A DNA stretch of 64,000 nucleotides, from the NCBI RefSeq assembly GCF_012910785.2, contig NZ_WTVH02000010.1, positions 434,001-498,000 of the forward strand, read 5' to 3'. This DNA is from Aromatoleum buckelii (lineage in GTDB: Bacteria; Pseudomonadota; Gammaproteobacteria; Burkholderiales; Rhodocyclaceae). Positions 29,003 through 41,881 of this stretch are shown here, piece by piece. The position numbers and the translations under genes are program-made. Every line of letters starts with the position of its first letter. The stretch's first letter is position 1. Below the pieces are notes generated by a model. That model did no database searches, had not been told where the DNA came from, and saw nothing but the letters and a program-made list of their open reading frames with translations.

Positions 29003-29006
<4 letters not shown>

Positions 29007-30385
29007 TTGGAAGGTTCCGCCCTGGCCGCGGGGGCACGTTCACCATTGGCGACCGCGTCGCCGTCGCCGCCGGCGACCACCGTGACGAGGTGCTCGTCGC
29101 GAATACGGCGCGAGAAAGCGTCGCGCACCGCCTCGACGGTGACTTCGGCGACGCGCTCCGGATAGGTGTCGAGCCAGTCCAGCGGCAGGCCGTAGAAGCC
29201 GATCATCGACACGTAGTCGAGGATCTTGCGGTTCGAGTCGAGCCGCAGCCCGAAGCCGTTGATGAAGTTGTCCTTGGCCGCTTGCAGTTCGTCGGTGGTC
29301 GGGCCGGCGGCGACGAATTCGTCGAGCACCGCCCGCGTCACCTGCCGCGCCTCCTTGGCTTGGCTGCCGCGCGTCTGCAGTCCGATTTCGAACGGGCCGG
29401 CGACGCGCAGCGGCTGGAACGAGCTGAAGACGCTGTACGCGAAGCCGCGTTTTTCGCGCACTTCCTTCGTCAGCCGAGACACGAAACCGCCTCCGCCGAG
29501 GACGTAGTTGCCGACGACGAGCGGGAAATAATCCGGGTCGTCGCGCGAGATTCCCGGCATTCCCATGAGGATATGGGCCTGTGCAGACGGGTGTTCGATA
29601 TGTTCGACGAGGCGGGGCGGAAGCTGCGGCGGGGGCAGCGGGGCGGGCGGCGTCCCGGCGGGCAGGGCTTCGGTGAGGCGGACCGCGATCCGTTCGGCCT
29701 GGTCGCGGCTGACGTCGCCGACGATCGCGACACTGGCCGCGAGCGCGGTGTAGTGCGTCTGGTGAAACGCTTCGATCTGGTCGCGCGTGATCCGCTGCAG
29801 CGATTCGACGGTGACGAGTCGGCCATAGGGGTGATCGCCGTAGATCGCACGGGTGAAGCTGCGCGCGGCGAGGGTGTCCGGGCGCGTCAGCGCGTCGCGC
29901 AGGCCGGCGATGCTGCGCGCGCGCTCGCGTTCGAGGATCTCCGCCGGGAATGTCGGCTTCGCGAGCAGCCGCGCGGCGAGCCCGATTGCCGCTTCGCGCT
30001 CGGCCTCGCTCGACAGGGTGCGCACCGACAGAGCCGCCATGTCCTTGTCCGTGCCGCCGCCGATGCGCGCGCCAGTGTCGGCGATCCGTTCGGCGATCTG
30101 CTGTTCGTTCAGGTTTTCCGTCCCTGCATCGAGGAGGCTGCGCGTCAGGCTCGCGACGCCGGCCGCGTCTGCCGGGTCGAGTGCGCCGCCGGCAGCGAAC
30201 GTGACCTGCACGTCGACGAGCGGCAGCGCGTGGCTTTCGACGAAAAACACGCGTGCGCCGGTCGGCGCGGTCCAGTGCTGGATGTCCGGGCCGGCAATCG
30301 CCGTGCCGAAGCTTGCGAAGGCAGCCAGCGCGAGCAGCGTCGCGCGGGCAGGGACGATCTTCCGGATCAGGGTGGTCGGATTCAT
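29003..30385 (-). CDS. M16-family peptidase-like protein, catalytic motif lost
   Basis: The 460-residue secreted protein has a signal peptide (about 1-31) and the two-lobed M16 (insulinase/MPP) fold. Where active members have HxxEH, it reads SLTRSLLDAGT, so zinc-binding residues are absent. The C-terminal lobe keeps LGGGGFVSRLTKEVREKRGFAYSVFS, the Arg/Tyr substrate motif. It follows the active M16 gene by one base, a typical pair in which the inactive subunit completes a heterodimer, as in mitochondrial processing peptidase. Confidence 0.9.
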
Positions 30386-30386
30386 G

Positions 30387-31760
30387 CTAGTGCCTCGTCG
30401 CCGGCGCCGCGGGGCGAGGCTGTCCGGCAGGAACGGGCAGCGGGTCGAGCTGTGCCCGGGTCAGCGTGGTGTCGGTGAAATATTTGCGCGCGACCGCCTG
30501 GACTTCCGCAGCGGTGACGCGACGCACGCCTTCGAGCAGCGCCGCCTCGTCGCGCCACGACAGGCCGCTCGCCTCGAGGAAGCCGATCTCCATCGCCTGG
30601 CCCATCAGGGAATCGCGCTTGTAGACTTCGCCGGCGATCGTCTGCGTCTTGACCCGCTCGAGCTCGTCCTCGGCGATCCCTTCGTTCTGGATGCGCGCGA
30701 TCTCGTCGCGCAGCGCCGCGGCGACGTCGGCGACGGTCTTGCCCGCTGCGGGAGCCGCGTCGAGCGTGAACAGCGACGGGCCGCGTGCCGTGCCGTCGTA
30801 GCCGGCGCCGACCGACACCGCGACGCGCGTCTCACGCACCAGCCGGCGCGGCAGACGCGCACCGTCATAGCCGTCGAGCACCGCCGCGAGCACCTGCAGT
30901 GCATACACGTCGCGGTCGTTCGCCGGATCGCGCAGCGTCGGCGCACGCCATGCCAGCGCGACGTAGGGCAGTTCGGCAGGCGCCCTGACGACGCTCTGGC
31001 GCGGGCCGAGCTGCTCCGGTTCGGGCGTGATGCGGCGCTTCGGCAGTTCGCGCGCGGCCACGGCGCCGTAGTAGCGGCGGGCGAGGTCGAACACCGCCTG
31101 GTGGTCGATGTCGCCGACGACGACGAGGCGCGCGTTGTTCGGCGCGTACCAGTTCCGGTGCCAGGTGCGCGCATCCTCGGCCGTCATCGAGGCGAGGTCG
31201 GTCATCCAGCCGATGACCGGACGGCCATACGGGTGGGCCTGGAACGTCGTGGCCATCAACTGCTCATGCACCAGCGCGCGCGGCTCGTCTTCGGTGCGCA
31301 GGCGCCGTTCTTCCCGCACGACGTCGAGCTCCGGCGCGAACAGCGAAGGCGTGATCTTCAGGTTCGCCATCCGGTCGGCTTCGAGCATCATCATGTCGTC
31401 CAGCTCGGCCGGCGGGATCTGCTGGAAATATGCCGTGTAGTCGCGCGACGTGAACGCGTTGTCGCGCCCGCCGACCGCGGCGACGCGCTTGTTGAACTCG
31501 CCCGGGCCGACTTTCTCCGTGCCTTTGAACATCATGTGTTCGAGCAGATGCGCGATGCCTGAGACGCCTGCCGGTTCGTCCATCGCGCCGACGTCGTACC
31601 ACACCATATGAACCACCGACGGGGCGCGGCGGTCTTCCTTGACGATGACTTGCATGCCGTTGTCGAGGGTCGTCTCGAACGGATTCGCGTGAAGCGGCCC
31701 CGCTGCGGCGAACAGCGCGGCGGCAAGCAGGGCGAGGCGGGGAAAGTTCTGGCGAAACAT
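30387..31760 (-). CDS. Periplasmic M16-family zinc metallopeptidase
   Basis: The 457-residue protein starts with a signal peptide ending PLHA (about residue 25). It has the M16 zinc motif HLLEH (in GIAHLLEHMMFKGTEK) and a downstream Glu-containing helix (EADRMANL). The start at 31760 is preferred over an upstream ATG at 31775 because of its spacing from AGGACAT and its clean signal peptide. It is first in the operon with the inactive M16 partner, rsmD, coaD and ferredoxin. The substrate is unknown; relatives degrade peptides. Confidence 0.92.
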   Translation of the reverse strand: MFRQNFPRLALLAAALFAAAGPLHANPFETTLDNGMQVIVKEDRRAPSVVHMVWYDVGAMDEPAGVSGIAHLLEHMMFKGTEKVGPGEFNKRVAAVGGRDNAFTSRDYTAYFQQIPPAELDDMMMLEADRMANLKITPSLFAPELDVVREERRLRTEDEPRALVHEQLMATTFQAHPYGRPVIGWMTDLASMTAEDARTWHRNWYAPNNARLVVVGDIDHQAVFDLARRYYGAVAARELPKRRITPEPEQLGPRQSVVRAPAELPYVALAWRAPTLRDPANDRDVYALQVLAAVLDGYDGARLPRRLVRETRVAVSVGAGYDGTARGPSLFTLDAAPAAGKTVADVAAALRDEIARIQNEGIAEDELERVKTQTIAGEVYKRDSLMGQAMEIGFLEASGLSWRDEAALLEGVRRVTAAEVQAVARKYFTDTTLTRAQLDPLPVPAGQPRPAAPATRH

Positions 31761-31900
31761 GGAGATGTCCTGCATCTGGTAGAATTCGCGGCTCGCGGTC
31801 CGGACTGAACCCGGCGCCGCTCGAACGTGCAGCCGCATCTTAGCGTTATTGGGACTTCGGCGCCGCCGAAGTTCAAACGTCACAACAGACCCGAATACCC

Positions 31901-33717: not shown

Positions 33718-34616
33718 TCAACTGGTTCTCGCTGCATCTGCGCGCGTTCGCGCTGGCGCTGCGGCGCCTCGTCGCGCAGCCGCTCGGAACGCTGCTGTCG
33801 GCGCTCGTCGTCGGCATCGCGCTGTCGCTGCCGGCAGCCGGCTACCTGCTCCTCGACAACGTCGCGTCGCTCGCACGCGGCGTTTCCGGCACGCCTGAAA
33901 TCAGCGTCTTCATGGCGCAGGACGCGTCGGACGCCGACGTCGACGCGATCGACAAGCGGCTGCGCGCCGACGGCGAGCTCGCCGGCTACCGCCATGTGCC
34001 CAAGGACGAAGCGCTGCGGCAGCTCGAGCACAGCGGCCTCGGCGACGTGCTCGGCGGCCTGACGTCGAACCCGCTGCCCGACGCGTTCATCGTCACGCCG
34101 GGCAGCGACGATCCGGCTGCGTACGAGCAGCTCCATGCGCGCTTTGTGGCGTGGCCGGGCATCGCCCACGTACAGCTCGATTCGGCGTGGGTCAAGCGCC
34201 TGCATGCGCTGCTCGGGCTCGGGCAGTCCGCGGTGCTGCTGCTCGCCGGGCTGCTCGGCTTCGCGCTCGTCATCGTCACGTTCAACACGATCCGGCTGCA
34301 GATCCTCACGCAGCGCCACGAGATCGACGTCAGCCGCCTGCTCGGCGCGACCGATCCGTTCATCCGTCGCCCGTTCTACTGGTTCGGCACGTTGCAGGGC
34401 CTGCTCGGCGGAGGCGTCGCGCTGGCGACGGTGTGGGCGACCGTGCAGGCGCTGCGCGGGCCGGTCGCGAGTCTCGCCGAGACTTACGGCGCGGTGTTCA
34501 CGCTGAGCGGGCCGGGCCTGCACGAGAGCGCAGCGATCCTCGGCTTCGCCGCGTTCCTCGGCTGGCTCGGCAGCGCGATCTCGGTACGCCGTCATCTAGC
34601 CGAACGCCTCACGTAA
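33714..34616 (+). CDS. ftsX: Cell division protein FtsX
   Basis: The 300-residue membrane subunit of FtsEX has an N-terminal helix (LLSALVVGIALSLPAAGYLLL), a periplasmic loop that in relatives contacts the hydrolase activator, and three C-terminal helices. The conserved FNTIRLQILTQRHEIDVSRLLGATDPFIRRPFY segment lies between them. It overlaps ftsE by four bases. Confidence 0.96.
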   Translation: MINWFSLHLRAFALALRRLVAQPLGTLLSALVVGIALSLPAAGYLLLDNVASLARGVSGTPEISVFMAQDASDADVDAIDKRLRADGELAGYRHVPKDEALRQLEHSGLGDVLGGLTSNPLPDAFIVTPGSDDPAAYEQLHARFVAWPGIAHVQLDSAWVKRLHALLGLGQSAVLLLAGLLGFALVIVTFNTIRLQILTQRHEIDVSRLLGATDPFIRRPFYWFGTLQGLLGGGVALATVWATVQALRGPVASLAETYGAVFTLSGPGLHESAAILGFAAFLGWLGSAISVRRHLAERLT

Positions 34617-34640
34617 GGCTCCTCGGCGGCGGGCTGCGGC

Positions 34641-34646
34641 TATAAT
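34641..34646 (+). promoter_or_regulatory. Candidate -10 element for the radical SAM gene
   Basis: A perfect TATAAT lies 50 bp before the radical SAM start and 25 bp after ftsX. No good -35 hexamer is present at 16-18 bases upstream, so it may be an activated promoter. Confidence 0.4.
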
Positions 34647-34695
34647 CCGCGCCCGCCGCGGAAACATTTTCCCCCCAGCTCACGCACGACAAATC

Positions 34696-35826
34696 ATGAA
34701 CGCACCCGAACTGCGCCGGCCGATCGTCGGCAACCGCGTCGAACTCAACATCTTCACGACGCTCGCCTGCAACCTGAAGTGCTCGTACTGCTCGATCGCA
34801 GTCGGCGACGTCCTCGGTTCGCAGGGCAAGGTCGCGTATTCGCTCGACACGCTCGACACCTTCATCGCGACGCATCTCGCCGACAAGGAGATCTACGTCA
34901 CGTTCTACGGCGGCGAGCCGACGCTGAACATCCCGTTCATGGCGGCGCTCATGGAGCGCCACCCGACGTTCCGCTTCCAGCTGCAGACGAACGGCACGCT
35001 GCTGCACCGGCTGCCGGATGCGGTGCTGGCGAAGCTGTCGAACGTGCTCGTGTCGGTCGATGGCGCCGAGCACACCACCGACCATTACCGCGGCCGCGGC
35101 GTGTATCGCAAGGTGACGGCGAACATCGAAAAAATCCGGCCGAAGCTCGGCGGGAGGCTCACCGCGCGCGTGACCTGGGGACATCCTGACATCAGCTTCG
35201 ACGAACTCGACAGCCTGCTGCCGGCCTTCGACTACGTGTATTGGCAGTTCACCCAGGCCGAAGGCTTCTACGACGCCGAAGCCATGCCCGCCAAGAAGGA
35301 AGCGCTGACGCTGCTGATCGACAAGTTCTTCGCTTCGCCCGCGCTGTACCCGTTCATTCCTCTGATGGGCACGGTGCGCAACAAGGTGCTGCCGTCGCGC
35401 GCCCGCGAGGCGTGTAGCGGGCTGTCGCAATGCCGCGCGTCGACGCATATCCTCAACATCCTGCCGGACGGGCGCATCTTCCCGTGCCCGGACCTGACGC
35501 ACCGCCCGGAAATGCAGCAGGGCGACCTCGTCGCGAACTGGCTCAAGCCGAGTCCGCTGCAGCCGACGCCTGCGATGCCGTGCGAATCGTGCGAAGCGCT
35601 GCCGTTCTGCCGGCGCAACTGCATGAAGAACCTCTACGTCGGTTACGTGCTCGACGACGCGCCGTATCGCGAGCAGGTCGTCGAGCCGATCTGCGAGTTG
35701 GTGAAGTTCATGGGCGCCGAGATCGACCGCCGCGACCCGCACGCGTGGTTCGCGAACGCGCCGCTTGCAGTGCGGCGCGAGATCACCGACTGCGAGATCT
35801 ACGACTACGTCGAAGTGATGCCGTAG
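34696..35826 (+). CDS. Radical SAM/SPASM domain protein, substrate unknown
   Basis: The 376-residue protein has a radical SAM cluster motif CNLKCSYC (about residues 25-32), the FYGGEPTLN motif of the SAM site, and a complete C-terminal SPASM pattern. That pattern is C-X12-G-X4-C (ending DGRIFPC), then CX2CX5CX3C (CESCEALPFCRRNC), then a last Cys in EPICEL. It therefore probably holds one SAM cluster and two auxiliary clusters. SPASM enzymes usually modify peptides (RiPP maturation, quinone cofactors) or act as sulfatase maturases. No precursor peptide, sulfatase or transporter gene lies next to it. It resembles the archaeal/bacterial AF1255-type peptide-modifying group from memory, which is not verified. 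It stands alone between ftsX and the MFS gene. Confidence 0.85.
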   Translation: MNAPELRRPIVGNRVELNIFTTLACNLKCSYCSIAVGDVLGSQGKVAYSLDTLDTFIATHLADKEIYVTFYGGEPTLNIPFMAALMERHPTFRFQLQTNGTLLHRLPDAVLAKLSNVLVSVDGAEHTTDHYRGRGVYRKVTANIEKIRPKLGGRLTARVTWGHPDISFDELDSLLPAFDYVYWQFTQAEGFYDAEAMPAKKEALTLLIDKFFASPALYPFIPLMGTVRNKVLPSRAREACSGLSQCRASTHILNILPDGRIFPCPDLTHRPEMQQGDLVANWLKPSPLQPTPAMPCESCEALPFCRRNCMKNLYVGYVLDDAPYREQVVEPICELVKFMGAEIDRRDPHAWFANAPLAVRREITDCEIYDYVEVMP

Positions 35827-35896
35827 CGTAGAACGCTGCATCGACCGGTGGCCGGAACCTGCCGGGCGATGTCGAACGGAATGGTGCGATTGCGCG

Positions 35897-37093
35897 TCAG
35901 GCTTCGAAGGCCGGCACGTTGCCTGCGGTTTCGCGCCGTTCGACGGCTTTCAGCACCAGCAGCAGCACGACGCCGACGACCATCGCCGCGGCGGCGAGGT
36001 ACAGTCCCGCGGCGTAGCCGCCGAGCGAGGCCGCGAGCCAGCCGGTCAGCGCGGGGGCCGCGATCTGCGCGATGCCGTACGAGACGGTCATCTTGCCCAT
36101 CATTTTTGCCGGTCGCGTCGGGTAGTAGCGGCCGGCCATTGTCAGCACGAGGCTGACCATGCCGATGAACGTGCCGCCGAACAGCAGCGCGCCGGCGAGC
36201 GCCGCGGCGAGGCCGCCGGCAAGCGGCAGCAGGATGCCGCCGATCTGCAGCACCGCCGCGAGGATCAGCGCATTGAGATCCCCGGTGCGGCGCGCGACGA
36301 AGTCCCAGACGATGCACGCCGGCGCCGCGGCGACGCCGATCGCGAGGAACACCAGCGTGCCGCGCCCGGCGAGTCCCGGCAACTGGTCGACGATCGCGAC
36401 GATGAAGGTCGCGCTGACGACGTAGCCGATTCCCGCGCAGAAGTACGAGACCATGAAAAGGCGCATGAACAGCGGCGTCGGCGGCCGGTCGGCCATGACT
36501 TCGCCGGTTTTCGTCACCGCGCTGCGATCGGGCGGCGGCAGCCAGCGCAGCGCCGGCACCAGGAGCACGCAGCCGAACGCGGTGAACGCGAACCACTGCT
36601 CGCGCCAGTCGAGCCACGAACTCATCAGCGCGACCGCTGCCGCGCACCCGGCAATGCCGAGGCCGATCCCGGCGAAGTGGATGCCGAGTTCGCTGCGGTG
36701 GTTGTGACGGATCAGCCAGTTGAGGATCAGCCCGGTGCCGAACAGCATGCCCGCGGCACTGCTCAGCCCGGCGATGAAGCGCGACACCGCCCACACGGTG
36801 GAGTCCGTCGTCAGGCCCATCATCGCGGTGCTCAGGACTGCAACGACCATCCCGATCCGGTACAGGCGGTCCTTGAGCACGAGATCGCTGATCATCGCCG
36901 CGAGCACCGCGCCGGAGAGATAACCGGCGTAGTTGATGGCCGCCAGCCAGCCGGCTTCGGCAATCCCGAGCCCCGCCTGCTGCTGCATCAGCGGCAGCAG
37001 CGGGGTATACGCGAAACGCGCGACACCCAGCACGAGAATCAGGCTGAAGATGCCTGCGCTCAAAATCTTGATGCGTTCTTTCTGTTCGTTCAT
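35897..37093 (-). CDS. MFS transporter, YbfB/YjiJ-like
   Basis: The 398-residue protein has about 12 hydrophobic helices typical of the major facilitator superfamily. Its N-terminal pattern is LVLGVARFAYTPLLPLMQQQAGL, as in the YbfB/YjiJ group, with AGYLSGAVLAAM and later PTRPAKMMGKMT. ATG 37093 begins MNEQKERIK before the first helix. It is divergent from a LysR regulator with a dyad between them and lies beside the gentisate cluster, so import of an aromatic acid is possible. The substrate is inferred only. Confidence 0.85.
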   Translation of the reverse strand: MNEQKERIKILSAGIFSLILVLGVARFAYTPLLPLMQQQAGLGIAEAGWLAAINYAGYLSGAVLAAMISDLVLKDRLYRIGMVVAVLSTAMMGLTTDSTVWAVSRFIAGLSSAAGMLFGTGLILNWLIRHNHRSELGIHFAGIGLGIAGCAAAVALMSSWLDWREQWFAFTAFGCVLLVPALRWLPPPDRSAVTKTGEVMADRPPTPLFMRLFMVSYFCAGIGYVVSATFIVAIVDQLPGLAGRGTLVFLAIGVAAAPACIVWDFVARRTGDLNALILAAVLQIGGILLPLAGGLAAALAGALLFGGTFIGMVSLVLTMAGRYYPTRPAKMMGKMTVSYGIAQIAAPALTGWLAASLGGYAAGLYLAAAAMVVGVVLLLVLKAVERRETAGNVPAFEA

Positions 37094-37124
37094 CAGAGGC
37101 TCGTCAATTCTTCCGATCGGACAC

Positions 37125-37144
37125 GATAGACAGGATAATCTATC
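37125..37144. promoter_or_regulatory. LysR-type operator between the MFS and LysR genes
   Basis: GATAGA (37125-37130) and TCTATC (37139-37144) form a perfect 6-bp dyad with an 8-base spacer in the 100-bp divergent gap. Size and place fit a LysR-family binding site. Confidence 0.55.
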
Positions 37145-37193
37145 GAAACAAACGATTTGTTCTGAACGAAAAATTCTCTTTTGGAGATGGGTG

Positions 37194-38039
37194 ATGGAAC
37201 TCGTCGCGCTGCGGACTTTCCAGGCGGTCGTCGAAGAGGGCGGCATCCTTGCCGCGTCGCGCAAGCTCAACACCGTGCAGTCGAATGTCACGAGCCGCAT
37301 CCGCCGGCTCGAGGAAGAGCTGGGAACGGAACTCTTTTTCCGCAAGGGGCGCGGGATCGAGCTCGCGCCGTCCGGGCGGGTGCTGCTCGAATATGCGCGC
37401 CGGATGCTGCTGCTCGAACGCCAGACGACCGCAGCGATGCGGCAGGTCGGCGAGAGTGCAGGGGAATTGCGCATCGGCACGATGGAGACTTTCGCCGCGC
37501 TGCACCTGCCCGCAGCGCTGAAGGCCGTGCGCGCCGCGCATCCGGCGCTGGAACTGCGGGTGCAGGCGGACACCAGTGCCGCGCTGACCGAGAAGGTGCT
37601 CGACCACAAGCTCGACTGCGCATTCGTGGCCGGGCCGGTGAAGCACCCCGATCTTCAGTTCGAAGAACTTGTCGTCGAGGAACTCGTGCAGGTGTGCGCC
37701 GACGGCGCGGGCCCCCAAGCGCTGCCGCTGATCATTTTCCGTGAAGGCTGCGCGTACCGCGCCCGGGCGCTTGCTTGGCAGCGTGCTAGCGGGCAGGCGT
37801 GCGCCGACGTGATGGAGTTCGGCACGCTCGAAGGAATCCTCGGCTGCGTGTCGGTCGGGCTCGGCTGGACGCTGATGCCACGGCGCGTCGTCGAACGCTC
37901 GCCGCTTGCCGCCGAACTCGTCGTCGAGGCGTTGCCGGCGGACGTCGGCCGTGTGCCGACCGGGATGGTCCGCCTGCGCGATGCGCGACCGATAGCAGCA
38001 TTGAAGACGCTTGCCGACGCGGTGACGACCGGCGCGTGA
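37194..38039 (+). CDS. LysR-family transcriptional regulator
   Basis: The 281-residue protein has an N-terminal winged helix-turn-helix (LRTFQAVVEEGGILAASRKLNTVQSNVTSRIRRLEEELG) and a periplasmic-binding-like effector domain. The ATG at 37194 is supported by GGAG at 37183-37186. It is divergent from the MFS gene and probably regulates it, and perhaps the gentisate genes, by the usual LysR logic. The effector is unknown. Confidence 0.92.
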   Translation: MELVALRTFQAVVEEGGILAASRKLNTVQSNVTSRIRRLEEELGTELFFRKGRGIELAPSGRVLLEYARRMLLLERQTTAAMRQVGESAGELRIGTMETFAALHLPAALKAVRAAHPALELRVQADTSAALTEKVLDHKLDCAFVAGPVKHPDLQFEELVVEELVQVCADGAGPQALPLIIFREGCAYRARALAWQRASGQACADVMEFGTLEGILGCVSVGLGWTLMPRRVVERSPLAAELVVEALPADVGRVPTGMVRLRDARPIAALKTLADAVTTGA

Positions 38040-38134: not shown

Positions 38135-38797
38135 TCAGGCTGTCGACGGCGGCGCGTCGGGTTGTCTTGCCGGCGCGGCGCGACAGAATGCGTCGAGCTG
38201 CCCGCACGCCGCGTCGACCGCGAGAAGGTTCGGGTACGGTGACAGATCGACGTTGAATCGCCGCGCGCTCTCCACCTGCGGGATCAGATAGACGTCGGCG
38301 AGCGTCGGCGCGTTGCCGAAGCAGAACTCCCCGCGCGACTTGTCGGCCGCGAGCAGCGCTTCGAGCGCGTCGAAACCGGCCTTGATCCACGTGCCGCACC
38401 ACGCGAGCACTGCCGCCTCGTCGCAGCCGAGAGTCTTCCGCAGGTATTCCAAGATGCGGCGGTTGTTGATCGGGTGGATGTCGCAGCCGACGATCGCGGC
38501 GAGCGCGCGCACGCGGGCGCGATCCTCGGCGCTGGCGGGCAGCAGCGCCGGCGTCGGGTAGCGTTCCTCGAGCCACTCGATGATCGCCGGCGACTGGATC
38601 AGCGTCAGGTCGCCCTCAGGGGACTCCGACACGAGCGCCGGCACCAGCGCCTGCGGATTCACCGCCCTGAAGGCGGCGTCAAGGTGTTCCTCGCTGCGCA
38701 GGTCGACCGCGACGTATTCGTAGTCGAGCCCTTTGAGGTTCAGCGCGATGCGCAGACGATGCGACGTGCCGCTGCGGAAGAAGTTGTAGAGCTGCAT
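38135..38797 (-). CDS. nagL: Maleylpyruvate isomerase (zeta-class GST-like)
   Basis: The 220-residue protein has a thioredoxin-like N-terminal domain with the zeta-class motif RSGTSHRLRIALNLKGLDYEY, then LVPALVSE and an all-helical C-terminal domain (GCDIHPINNRRILEYL). It would convert maleylpyruvate to fumarylpyruvate with glutathione. The close homologue maleylacetoacetate isomerase is the alternative, but the operon with gentisate dioxygenase and a fumarylpyruvate-type hydrolase favours maleylpyruvate. The start at 38797 is chosen for MQLYNFF. It is the last gene of the cluster, 11 bp after the hydroxylase. Confidence 0.88.
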   Translation of the reverse strand: MQLYNFFRSGTSHRLRIALNLKGLDYEYVAVDLRSEEHLDAAFRAVNPQALVPALVSESPEGDLTLIQSPAIIEWLEERYPTPALLPASAEDRARVRALAAIVGCDIHPINNRRILEYLRKTLGCDEAAVLAWCGTWIKAGFDALEALLAADKSRGEFCFGNAPTLADVYLIPQVESARRFNVDLSPYPNLLAVDAACGQLDAFCRAAPARQPDAPPSTA

Positions 38798-38808
38798 CGC
38801 TCGCTCCC

Positions 38809-40005
38809 TCATGCCGCCGCGGCGAGGCAGTTGTCGACGTTCCAGCCGTACAGCCACTCCATCGCGTCGTAGAAGCGCTCCGGCGTGCGGCCTTTCCACA
38901 GGTCGTTCCTGACGAGGCGCTCGACGCCCTTGGCGTGGTAGATGCGGCCCATTTCGCGCGACGACAACACGATGCGCGCGGTGCGCGCGACGCGCGAACG
39001 CTGGTAGAGATCGAAAGCCCGGACAAAGTCGTTGTCATGGACGCGCAGCGCTTCGCCGAGCGTCACGGCGTCTTCGAGCGCCATGCACGCGCCCTGCGCC
39101 ATGTATTGCGTCGTCGGGTGCGCCGCATCGCCGAGCAGCGTCACGCGGCCGAACGACCACTGGCCGATCGGCTCGCGGTCGGCAGTCGCCCAGCGCTTCC
39201 AGCTCTTCGGCAGGTCGATCAGCTGGCGCGCTTTCGAGCAGATGCCCTGGAAGTAGCTCTGCACCTCTTCGCGGCTGCCTTCGGTGACGCCCCATTCTTC
39301 CTGCTGGCGGCTGTGGAACGTCACGACGACGTTGTACTGCTCGCCGCCGCGCAGCGGGTAATGCACGAGGTGGCAGTTTGGCCCGACCCAGATGCTCGCG
39401 GCGTTCCACTGCAGGTTTTCGGGGAAATCCTTCTTGTCGATCACCGCCCGGTAGACGACGTGGCCGGTGACGCGCGGCGGGTCATTGACGTACTGCGCGC
39501 GCACCGCCGACTTGACGCCGTCGGCGCCGATCAGCGCGATGCCGCGGTGCGCGTTGCCATGCTGGTCGAACACCGTCACGCCGTGCTCGTCCTGCTCGAC
39601 ACGCTCGGCGCGGGTCGACGTCAGAAACTCGACGCGCCCGGTTTCCTGCGCGCCTTCGAGCAGCGACAGGTGCACATCGACGCGATGGATGACGGCGTAA
39701 GGGTTGCCGAAGCGCTTGCGGAACGCTTCCCCGGTGGGGATGCGGCCGACGAGGCTCTCGTCGAGCGCGTCGTGCATCACCATCTCGTCCGTATAGACCG
39801 CGCGGGCGCGCGCTTTGTCGCCGACGCCCAGCGCGTCGAACGCGTGGAAAGCGTTCGGGCCGAGCTGGATGCCGGCGCCGATTTCGCCGATCTCGGCCGC
39901 CCGCTCCAGCACCTTGACCGAAAAACCCTGGCGCACGAGCGCCAGTGCCGCGGCCAAGCCGCCAATGCCGCCGCCGGCGACGATTACGGGAAGTGTCTCG
40001 CTCAT
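38809..40005 (-). CDS. 3-hydroxybenzoate 6-hydroxylase (FAD monooxygenase)
   Basis: The 398-residue flavoprotein hydroxylates 3-hydroxybenzoate to gentisate, using NADH and O2. It has the FAD-binding GGGIGGLAAALAL, the middle DG motif ALIGADGVKSAVR and the GDAAHPTTQYMAQGACMALEDA motif. It resembles XlnD/MhbM/NagX-type enzymes more than salicylate 1-hydroxylase. Its place between gentisate pathway genes supports 3-hydroxybenzoate as substrate; salicylate 5- or 1-hydroxylation is less likely. Confidence 0.88.
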   Translation of the reverse strand: MSETLPVIVAGGGIGGLAAALALVRQGFSVKVLERAAEIGEIGAGIQLGPNAFHAFDALGVGDKARARAVYTDEMVMHDALDESLVGRIPTGEAFRKRFGNPYAVIHRVDVHLSLLEGAQETGRVEFLTSTRAERVEQDEHGVTVFDQHGNAHRGIALIGADGVKSAVRAQYVNDPPRVTGHVVYRAVIDKKDFPENLQWNAASIWVGPNCHLVHYPLRGGEQYNVVVTFHSRQQEEWGVTEGSREEVQSYFQGICSKARQLIDLPKSWKRWATADREPIGQWSFGRVTLLGDAAHPTTQYMAQGACMALEDAVTLGEALRVHDNDFVRAFDLYQRSRVARTARIVLSSREMGRIYHAKGVERLVRNDLWKGRTPERFYDAMEWLYGWNVDNCLAAAA

Positions 40006-40107
40006 GTCCGTCTCCTCTGTGTCGATGCGCGGGCCGTTCTCTGCGGTCCGCAGGTTCCGGCCCGGCTGTTCGCGGTCGGAAGCAGTTCTCGGGTGTCTCT
40101 CTTTGTC

Positions 40108-40818
40108 TTATTCCGGCTGACCGATCACGAGGTTGATCTCGCCGATGTCGTCGATCCGCCCGGTGAGCCGGTCGCCGGGATTGACGGCGCCGACGCCTTC
40201 GGGCGTGCCGGTGTAGATCAGGTCGCCCGGCTGCAGATGATAGAACTGCGACAGGTCGGCGATGATCTCGGGGATGCTCCAGATCAGCAGCGACACGTCC
40301 GACGACTGCTTCGTCTGGCCATTGACGGCGAGGGTCAGCGCCCCCTGCGACACGACGCCGAGTTCGCTTTTCGGCACGATCTCTGACGCGACCGACGACT
40401 GCTCGACATCCTTGCCCAGATCCCACGGCCGGCCGGCTTCGCGCGCGACGAGCTGCAGGTCGCGACGCGTCATGTCGAGGCCGCAGGCGTAGCCGTAGAT
40501 GAGCTTTTCCGCATCGGCTTCGGCGACGCGAAAACCCGGTGCGCCGATCGCGACGACGAGCTCCATCTCGTAGTGGAAATTCTTTGTCCCGGGGGGATAC
40601 GCGACGGTCGCGCCGGATTCGGTCAGCGTCGAAGGCGCCTTGGTGAAATAGAACGGCCGCGAAGTTGCCTTGTCCACGGGATTCCCCATCTCGACCGAAT
40701 GGGCGTAATAGTTGCGACCGACGAAAAACAGGCGGTTGATCGGGAACCGGGCATTGCTGCCGCACACCGGCAGCGAGCGGACCGGTGGCGGGGTGAAGAC
40801 GTATTCGGCTTGGCTCAT
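40108..40818 (-). CDS. nagK: Fumarylpyruvate hydrolase (FAH family)
   Basis: The 236-residue enzyme cleaves fumarylpyruvate to fumarate and pyruvate. FAH-family metal and active-site motifs are visible: FFVGRNYYAHSVEMG, the EME metal ligands in HYEMELVVAIG, and GDLIYTGTPEGVGAVNPGD. The ATG at 40818 is chosen for the GGAGAG ribosome site 7 bases upstream. It follows the dioxygenase by 25 bp in the operon. Confidence 0.9.
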   Translation of the reverse strand: MSQAEYVFTPPPVRSLPVCGSNARFPINRLFFVGRNYYAHSVEMGNPVDKATSRPFYFTKAPSTLTESGATVAYPPGTKNFHYEMELVVAIGAPGFRVAEADAEKLIYGYACGLDMTRRDLQLVAREAGRPWDLGKDVEQSSVASEIVPKSELGVVSQGALTLAVNGQTKQSSDVSLLIWSIPEIIADLSQFYHLQPGDLIYTGTPEGVGAVNPGDRLTGRIDDIGEINLVIGQPE

Positions 40819-40843
40819 CGTGATCTCTCCAGTGGCAGGCGTA

Positions 40844-41881
40844 TCAGGCACGGACTTCGTAGAGTCCGAGCTTGCGGTGCAGCGGGGACTCGTCGGCGAT
40901 GAAGATGAACGCCGGTTCGGTCGTCGAGCGGTTCTTCAGCGTGACGCGCGCGAACCCGGGGACGCAGCATGTGTCGGCCTCGGCGAGCGTGAACGCGGTG
41001 TCGTCGGCGGAAACGAGCGCACCACCTTCGATGACGTGGAACACCATCGCGGGGGAGCGGGCCGGCAGCGCGAGCGTCTCGCCCGGGCGCAGCATCAGCG
41101 CCGAGAAACCGAGGATATTCTGACAGCTGCTGCCGTCTTCGGGATTCACGTAGGCGACTTGCACCGCGTCGCTGCCGGGACGGTCGGCGGCGAGTGCTTC
41201 GAGCGCTGCGCGCACGTCGACCCACGGGTAGCGCAGCATCGGATAGGCTGACGTGTCGCGGGTGAACACCGGGCTCGGCACGACGCCGCCGCGCAGGTAT
41301 TCGCGGTCGCCGCGGCGCGGGATGACGTCCTGCTTCTCGCCTTCGACCGCGTACGACGCTTCCATGTAGTAGACCAGCGGCAGGTCGAGCACGTCGAGCC
41401 ACACGACCGCTTCGTCGCCGTCATGGCCATGCTCGTGCCACAGCCCGGTCGGAGTCAGGATCAGGTCACCGCGCTGCATCGGGCATTTTTCGCCATTGAC
41501 CGTCGTGTAGGCGCCGGTTCCCTCGACGATCATGCGCACCGCGTTCGGCGTGTGCCGGTGCGGGGGTGCCCATTCGCCCGGCAGCAGCAACTGCATGCCG
41601 AGGTACATGCTCGAACTCGCCTGCATCTTCTCGAGGCCGTGGCCGGGGTTCGCGAGCACGAGGACGCGGCGCTCGGCCTTCTCGATCGGCGTCAGCTCGC
41701 CGGCCTGCATCAGCAGCGGTCGCAGGCTCTTGTACGACCACATCGTCGCGCGAGTGCGGGGGCCGGGCTGGCCGAGCGGCAGGACCGCGCGCAAGCTCGG
41801 CCACAGCGGCACGAGATTCTGCGCGCTCAACGCCTGCCGGTAATCGAGCGGCAGATCTTCAAGGGTTCCGAGTTCCGACAT
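40844..41881 (-). CDS. nagI: Gentisate 1,2-dioxygenase
   Basis: The 345-residue bicupin Fe(II) enzyme opens the gentisate ring to maleylpyruvate. It has the cupin ligand motif PPHRHTPNAVRMIVEG with His-X-His, then DLILTPTGLWHEHGHDGDEAVVWLDVLDLP, and a second cupin in the C-terminal half. Length (about 345-350) matches. AGGAGG lies 9 bases before the ATG at 41881. It is the first gene of the cluster, divergent from a LysR regulator. Confidence 0.95.
   Translation of the reverse strand: MSELGTLEDLPLDYRQALSAQNLVPLWPSLRAVLPLGQPGPRTRATMWSYKSLRPLLMQAGELTPIEKAERRVLVLANPGHGLEKMQASSSMYLGMQLLLPGEWAPPHRHTPNAVRMIVEGTGAYTTVNGEKCPMQRGDLILTPTGLWHEHGHDGDEAVVWLDVLDLPLVYYMEASYAVEGEKQDVIPRRGDREYLRGGVVPSPVFTRDTSAYPMLRYPWVDVRAALEALAADRPGSDAVQVAYVNPEDGSSCQNILGFSALMLRPGETLALPARSPAMVFHVIEGGALVSADDTAFTLAEADTCCVPGFARVTLKNRSTTEPAFIFIADESPLHRKLGLYEVRA

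Follow-up and report, generated by a model that had tools for sequence, protein, structure and literature searches.

A solitary radical SAM/SPASM enzyme next to ftsX in Aromatoleum buckelii and its candidate substrates

The stretch of DNA analysed here, called the window in what follows, comprises 64,000 nucleotides from Aromatoleum buckelii and carries on its forward strand an open reading frame (34696-35826, ATG start) encoding a radical SAM/SPASM enzyme of 376 amino acids. Its neighbours are close: ftsX ends at 34616, 79 bp upstream, and a convergent MFS gene (MFS_4) begins at 35897 on the plus scale, 70 bp downstream, exactly the gaps given in the initial annotation. FtsX, FtsY and RsmD pass their NCBIfam cut-offs. 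The features of the locus are the following:

34623..35871 approx. (right edge between 35861 and 35871), no strand: block missing from genome G765, whose locus is otherwise collinear (locus alignment)
34641..34646, plus strand: TATAAT, presumed -10 of the enzyme's own promoter (sequence, kept in relatives)
34696..35826, plus strand: radical SAM/SPASM enzyme, 376 aa (ORF, NCBIfam/Pfam matches, homologue alignment)
34768..34791, plus strand: CNLKCSYC, with the SAM-cluster ligands C25/C29/C32 (sequence, homologue alignment)
35413..35415, plus strand: codon of C240, presumed fourth AuxI ligand (homologue alignment, tree)
35431..35694, plus strand: SPASM region, C246 to C333, with seven invariant cysteines (sequence, homologues)
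35800..35823, plus strand: conserved C-terminal tail YxYVE[VI]MP, the very end of the protein (homologue ends, motif search)

Two adjacent M16-type peptidase genes lie between rsmD and ftsY (29003-31883, minus strand), which match YfmF/YfmH, pitrilysin and PqqF weakly and below the cut-offs; the earlier statement that the flanks hold no peptidase is correct for the adjacent genes and does not extend to this pair. The M16 pair was rejected as a partner of the enzyme, being part of an rsmD-M16-M16-ftsYEX neighbourhood, while in genome G775 the enzyme is encoded on another contig, away from ftsX. At 38135-41881 (minus strand) there is an apparent 3-hydroxybenzoate/gentisate catabolic cluster, in which a 3-hydroxybenzoate 6-monooxygenase and a maleylacetoacetate isomerase-type protein score over cut-off and gentisate dioxygenase-like and fumarylacetoacetate hydrolase-like proteins score under it; a LysR gene (within 36933-38039, plus strand, with a later true start) and an MFS transporter are found nearby.

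The protein matches Pfam Radical_SAM (PF04055) with 49.4 bits against a cut-off of 29.5, which places it in the superfamily, and the CX3CX2C motif is read directly as C25, C29 and C32 within CNLKCSYC, as first annotated. The seven-cysteine SPASM motif, defined as CX9-15GX4C...CX2CX5CX3C...C (PMC6231123), is complete in the window protein: C246-X12-G259-X4-C264, C296-X2-C299-X5-C305-X3-C309 and C333. This pattern, too, is borne out as it was originally written, and its loss in homologues, which had been named as grounds for abandoning it, was seen nowhere: all seven cysteines are kept in 81 of 81 proteins (the window protein and the best 80 of 293 relatives) and in all 24 genomes of a further check that partly overlaps those relatives. 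The SAM-cluster cysteines are present in 80 of the same 81, the sole gap (locus L039) being due to the automatic choice of start, since the motif is readable just upstream of the chosen one. The Pfam SPASM model PF13186 finds nothing at E<=0.001 in the genome from which the window comes, so the SPASM call rests on the cysteine pattern, on homology and on NCBIfam TIGR04085, which matches 36 of 36 alignment members at E<=1e-5, a count based on E-values and not on the curated cut-off. Comparison with seven Aromatoleum/Azoarcus relatives gives a dN/dS of about 0.06-0.15; substitutions are thus mostly silent and the gene is maintained under purifying selection. In an AlphaFold2 model built from 36 sequences (mean pLDDT 83.7, pTM 0.85) the first barrel strand starts at residue 14, so that the protein is compact and has no RRE region before the barrel; Pfam likewise finds no RRE-type domain in it.

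The enzyme represents a SPASM subfamily that is well bounded, has no name yet and is unusual in its genetics. Among the best 25 of its 71 NCBIfam matches none reaches the curated cut-off, and among the matches listed no clear orthology to an enzyme of known function, the other ground on which the orphan label was to be given up, was found. The two best are TIGR04084 (rSAM_AF0577; 148.5 of 225 bits) and PapB (NF047865; 86.3 of 340 bits), the remaining 23 covering mainly the barrel. Both models match all 36 alignment members, TIGR04084 with the best E-values, of which the lowest, 6.5e-49, corresponds by scaling to some 167 bits and is still below 225. The alignment to TIGR04084 runs from residue 19 through the SPASM region to residue 311, whereas the last 60 positions of the model stay unmatched, where the window family carries its own conserved tail; the suggested search against TIGR04084-type subfamilies therefore yields the nearest curated model and not membership in it. 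The anaerobic sulfatase maturase anSME (TIGR03942) is a compact SPASM enzyme without RRE and with unlinked protein targets, and the profile of the window family aligns to its structure 4k37 into the SPASM region; however, TIGR03942 matches only the barrel, with 58.9 bits against a cut-off of 349.45, and by sequence the window enzyme is not an anSME orthologue.

The ranthipeptide maturase PapB is matched over residues 17-311, yet the window protein misses its cut-off, and PapB works on the CX3D motifs of its precursor PapA (PMC9413430), whereas no such precursor is linked to the window enzyme. ChlB and CteB are the nearest PDB folds (query TM-score 0.54-0.64 and rmsd 5.0-7.5 over the first five rows listed), and CteB (5wgg) is the closest solved relative by sequence, with E 1.1e-24 in a profile alignment. 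CteB also carries C-X12-G-X4-C, but both proteins share only 17-19% identity with the window protein and act on dedicated precursor peptides; furthermore, CteB has a leader-binding RRE domain (PMC6231123) that the window enzyme lacks. Prokaryotic viperin (pVip) resembles the enzyme in the radical SAM barrel (51.4 bits), but the match stops at residue 146 and the NCBIfam viperin cut-off is missed (47.8 versus 180 bits). The genes of pVip are patchy and often lone, and viperins are not known to have a SPASM domain. In the literature, a search for TIGR04084 found no mention, a combined-term search found nothing on orphan radical SAM/SPASM enzymes in betaproteobacteria, the titles among the matches listed for AF0577 look like accession-number matches, and none of the matches listed for Aromatoleum with radical SAM/SPASM concerns Aromatoleum.

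The orphan status of the gene extends well beyond the window. In 81 loci (the window and the best 80 of 293 relatives; enzyme called in 78), clustering of the called genes revealed no family recurring beside the enzyme across genera, and the neighbours differ from genus to genus (ftsX, gyrB, purL, PEPC, tamB and others). Twenty nearby proteins, picked for Pfam analysis because their clusters recur in a few loci, are gyrase B, DNA polymerase III beta clamp, PurL, PEP carboxylase, TamB, UbiD, regulators, transporters and others. In Aromatoleum, ftsX precedes the enzyme in 19 of 19 loci tested (12 whole-genome and 7 contig loci, with overlapping species). Among 4283 small ORFs within 3 kb (20-130 aa), no credible one recurs in the 81 loci, some of which end at contig ends, and no linked precursor gene of the kind expected for a RiPP was found there; a single set is common to three loci with enzymes less than 80% identical, and it presumably represents the well-known spurious ORF beside tRNA genes. 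The other sets listed are pairs, mostly from one duplicated MAG locus: L020 and L073 belong to one MAG (Ideonella sp. H5_PRO6), have near-identical flanks and are probably the same locus assembled twice, one copy being error-rich. The comparison of genomic context that the initial annotation had proposed thus upholds its view of an orphan gene, with housekeeping neighbours that vary by genus and no conserved partner.

Upstream of the gene, all 8 Aromatoleum-type loci share the TATAAT, which supports the promoter-like element pointed out earlier as a -10 of the gene's own; no -35 partner passed the promoter scan. Inverted-repeat arms of 12 nt (34623-34634 and 34651-34662) flank the TATAAT, and the leader of the enzyme may form a structure. 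In several other Aromatoleum loci the TATAAT is closely followed by a different hairpin, CCCCAATGTTGGGG, and in L054 a hairpin at this place is terminator-like. An FNR-type box occurs upstream, within two mismatches, in 12 of 79 loci and looked enriched over shuffles; it was rejected, for other genes of the same loci score alike (99/738, 13%, versus 12/79, 15%).

A scan of 84,980 species genomes returned 293 encoded relatives, the best 80 of which (58-98% identity) were used. The named lineages among these are Betaproteobacteria, with one bin labelled Gammaproteobacteria and several labelled only Proteobacteria. Of 399 genomes of the order, 18 carry the gene at E<=1e-60; it was also seen in three of 398 drawn from the phylum, all of the same order, and in 16 of the 17 genomes of the genus, 15 of these carriers having copies 86-100% identical. 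The sixteenth, G775, has a 64% identical copy on another contig (L111, C122) and none after its ftsX; this copy is due either to a second transfer or to mis-binning of the contig (the genome has 6% contamination). In genome G765, of the same genus, the match with the window runs to 34622 and resumes at about 35862-35872; the missing 1.25 kb or so comprises the promoter, the gene and some 35-45 bp downstream, and nothing else, and the edges of the block show no shared repeat longer than 6 bp. Because the ftsX of G765 is 96% identical to that of the window and its close relatives G764, G766 and G772 carry the gene, loss appears likelier than a primitive gap.

In a quick tree the gene conflicts with taxonomy: monophyly is rejected for Rhodocyclaceae/Zoogloeaceae (p-AU 1.5e-6), and for Gallionellaceae (p-AU 0.012) and Rubrivivax (0.0115), these last two values, near 0.01, being weakened because the groups tested were named after the first tree had been inspected. 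Transfer of the single gene is the simplest reading of the conflict, old paralogy, losses or mis-binned MAG contigs being possible causes as well. Phage records give 26 matches, each below 60% identity. Plasmid records give one, of 25.5% identity, in Acetoanaerobium noterae, where a 49-aa Cys-rich peptide (L099, 5470-5619) is encoded just before the maturase on a 2.6-Mb record labelled plasmid, which is probably a mislabelled chromosome. We take this maturase behind a Cys-rich peptide to be SCIFF-type, outside the family of the window enzyme, and carriage on mobile elements was rejected.

A panel of 80 genomes, which are not independent of each other, served to try six gene families as partners or markers of lifestyle; it comprised 18 carriers and 62 of the 381 non-carriers (nine from the window's family, the others taken in handle order), and no specific partner emerged. 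NrdD (class III RNR) is found in 10 of 18 carriers versus 13 of 62 non-carriers (p 0.007) and the cd1 family in 13 versus 23 (p 0.014); one or the other is present in all 18 carriers and in 29 non-carriers (p 1.7e-5), a union chosen post hoc. This association, read post hoc, agrees with an oxygen-sensitive enzyme that serves growth under anaerobic or microaerobic conditions, and it does not separate carriers from their close relatives, as 15 of the 17 panel non-carriers from carrier families share the markers. No link was seen in this panel with RuBisCO (12/18 versus 27/62, p 0.11), NifH over cut-off (3/18 versus 15/62), NiFe hydrogenase (8/18 versus 20/62) or aldehyde ferredoxin oxidoreductase (AFOR; 4/18 versus 13/62, counted by eye).

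Two parts of the protein deserve closer attention. At position 240, six residues before the first SPASM cysteine, the 81 homologues have Tyr (62), Cys (18) or His (1), and two further carriers have Ala (G057) and Thr (G008). On a tree built without this column, many forks of which are weakly supported, the residue changes state eight times, or seven with two doubtful rows removed. By spacing, C240 matches what we take to be the extra AuxI ligand of anSME; the window protein has C240-X5-C246 and, since the profile alignment to 4k37 is off by two residues here, the equivalence rests on spacing. If it is right, all ligands of AuxI would be Cys in the window protein, and in most orthologues the site would be open or bound by another ligand. 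Both states have been reported in different enzymes, and whether the fourth site must be Cys-ligated or open is described as debated in SPASM mechanism (PMC6231123); here the two presumed states would alternate inside one family.

The other part is the tail. YxYVE[VI]MP is the end of the protein in 81 of 81 cases (the window protein and the best 80 of 293 relatives), and since it is encoded by 62 different 24-nt sequences among 80, the constraint acts on the protein. The exact pattern is absent from three of the 16 carriers searched, which are more distant (57% identical) and end in YEYCEVMP (G057) or YEFCEVMP (G008, G356), so the tail is strongly conserved to the last residue, yet not identical everywhere. 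A search for exact matches in 17 genomes (16 of the 18 carriers and the non-carrier G765) gave one match each in 13, all at the end of the enzyme's own gene, and none in G008, G057, G356 or G765; a second copy elsewhere in the genome was therefore rejected for these 17. In the AlphaFold2 model the tail has a pLDDT of about 44 and its position is left unresolved. Probably it folds over the active site or reaches into it, or else it docks the partner.

Taken together, a lone gene without a recurring partner in the relatives examined probably acts on something that the host already makes. The gene seems to enter, move between and leave genomes alone, so its target would already be present in the recipients, and an enzyme that seems to need nothing encoded with it would find its substrate already in the cell. 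Where compact SPASM enzymes lack an RRE and have unlinked targets, the best-known cases modify proteins (anSME). The reading that we favour, and hold with somewhat less than even confidence, is that this free-standing enzyme acts on a host protein or peptide. The closest curated relatives, TIGR04084 and PapB followed by many peptide and protein maturases, count in favour of it; the restriction to one order would be odd for an enzyme with a very conserved target. Of the initial interpretation, the complete, free-standing SPASM enzyme with a conserved -10 and no linked substrate stands, while the role of peptide maturase with a distant or host protein target does not go beyond this tentative reading.

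Judging from the family, the [4Fe-4S] cluster held by C25, C29 and C32 would cleave SAM to a 5'-deoxyadenosyl radical, which would take a hydrogen from the substrate. AuxI (C246, C264, C309 and C240 where it is Cys) and AuxII (C296, C299, C305 and C333), with ligands that we assume by analogy with anSME, would then carry the electron away, leaving the substrate oxidised by two electrons, for instance crosslinked or dehydrogenated. The target would most likely be a conserved protein or peptide of the host, which the enzyme would bind without an RRE domain, much as anSME acts on unlinked proteins. For the class as a whole, reductive cleavage of SAM, hydrogen abstraction and auxiliary clusters as likely electron acceptors are described (PMC9012708).

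It is unlikely, though worth keeping in view, that the substrate is instead a small molecule (a cofactor, tetrapyrrole, nucleoside or sugar), modified in an oxygen-independent step like those of AhbC/AhbD, NirJ, BlsE or MoaA. SPASM/Twitch enzymes of such a kind are described (AhbD, NirJ), BlsE and MoaA are among the fold matches of the AlphaFold2 model, the AhbC model TIGR04546 matches 36 of 36 alignment members weakly, and both the solitary gene, which needs no dedicated peptide, and the association with anaerobic-growth markers are consistent with it. However, no pathway genes recur near the enzyme, a specific link to RuBisCO, NifH or NiFe hydrogenase is missing in the panel, and the two best matches through the SPASM region are of the peptide-modifying kind, TIGR04084 by association and PapB by experiment (PMC9413430). 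The resemblance to CteB, PapB and ChlB speaks for a RiPP maturase whose short precursor gene lies elsewhere in the genome. This we consider rather improbable, as precursors are normally adjacent, none of the 81 loci offers a credible recurring small ORF within 3 kb, and the absence of the gene alone in G765 would strand a precursor.

That the enzyme modifies its own tail, or that of another copy, seems to us very improbable. Conserved tails can serve as lids, as does the conserved tail of MoaA. What favours self-modification is that the tail ends every one of the 81 proteins and is constrained as protein, that 68 of them have C366-X3-[DE], and that PapB, the second-best curated match, crosslinks CX3D/E motifs (PMC9413430); yet C366 is Ala in 10 of the 81 and Ala or Asn in several further carriers, so no such crosslink can be essential there. 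A bolder form of the host-protein reading, which we regard as doubtful, is that of a single-gene unit passing between Betaproteobacteria and modifying a core host macromolecule by radical chemistry while the host grows anaerobically, with the conserved tail as a built-in substrate mimic or lid.

If this bolder reading is true, the family would represent a SPASM protein modifier without a dedicated substrate gene, apart from sulfatase maturation. Many SPASM enzymes have been assigned through an adjacent precursor peptide, and a conserved, sharply bounded family that has no recurring neighbour defeats that method. The recurrent Cys/Tyr/Ala exchange at residue 240, the presumed fourth AuxI ligand, provides a natural experiment on Cys-ligated versus open AuxI, and the target is findable by proteomics and metabolomics because some near-isogenic genomes carry the gene behind ftsX and others lack it there. 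The family suggests a protein or metabolite modification as yet unknown in environmental Betaproteobacteria.
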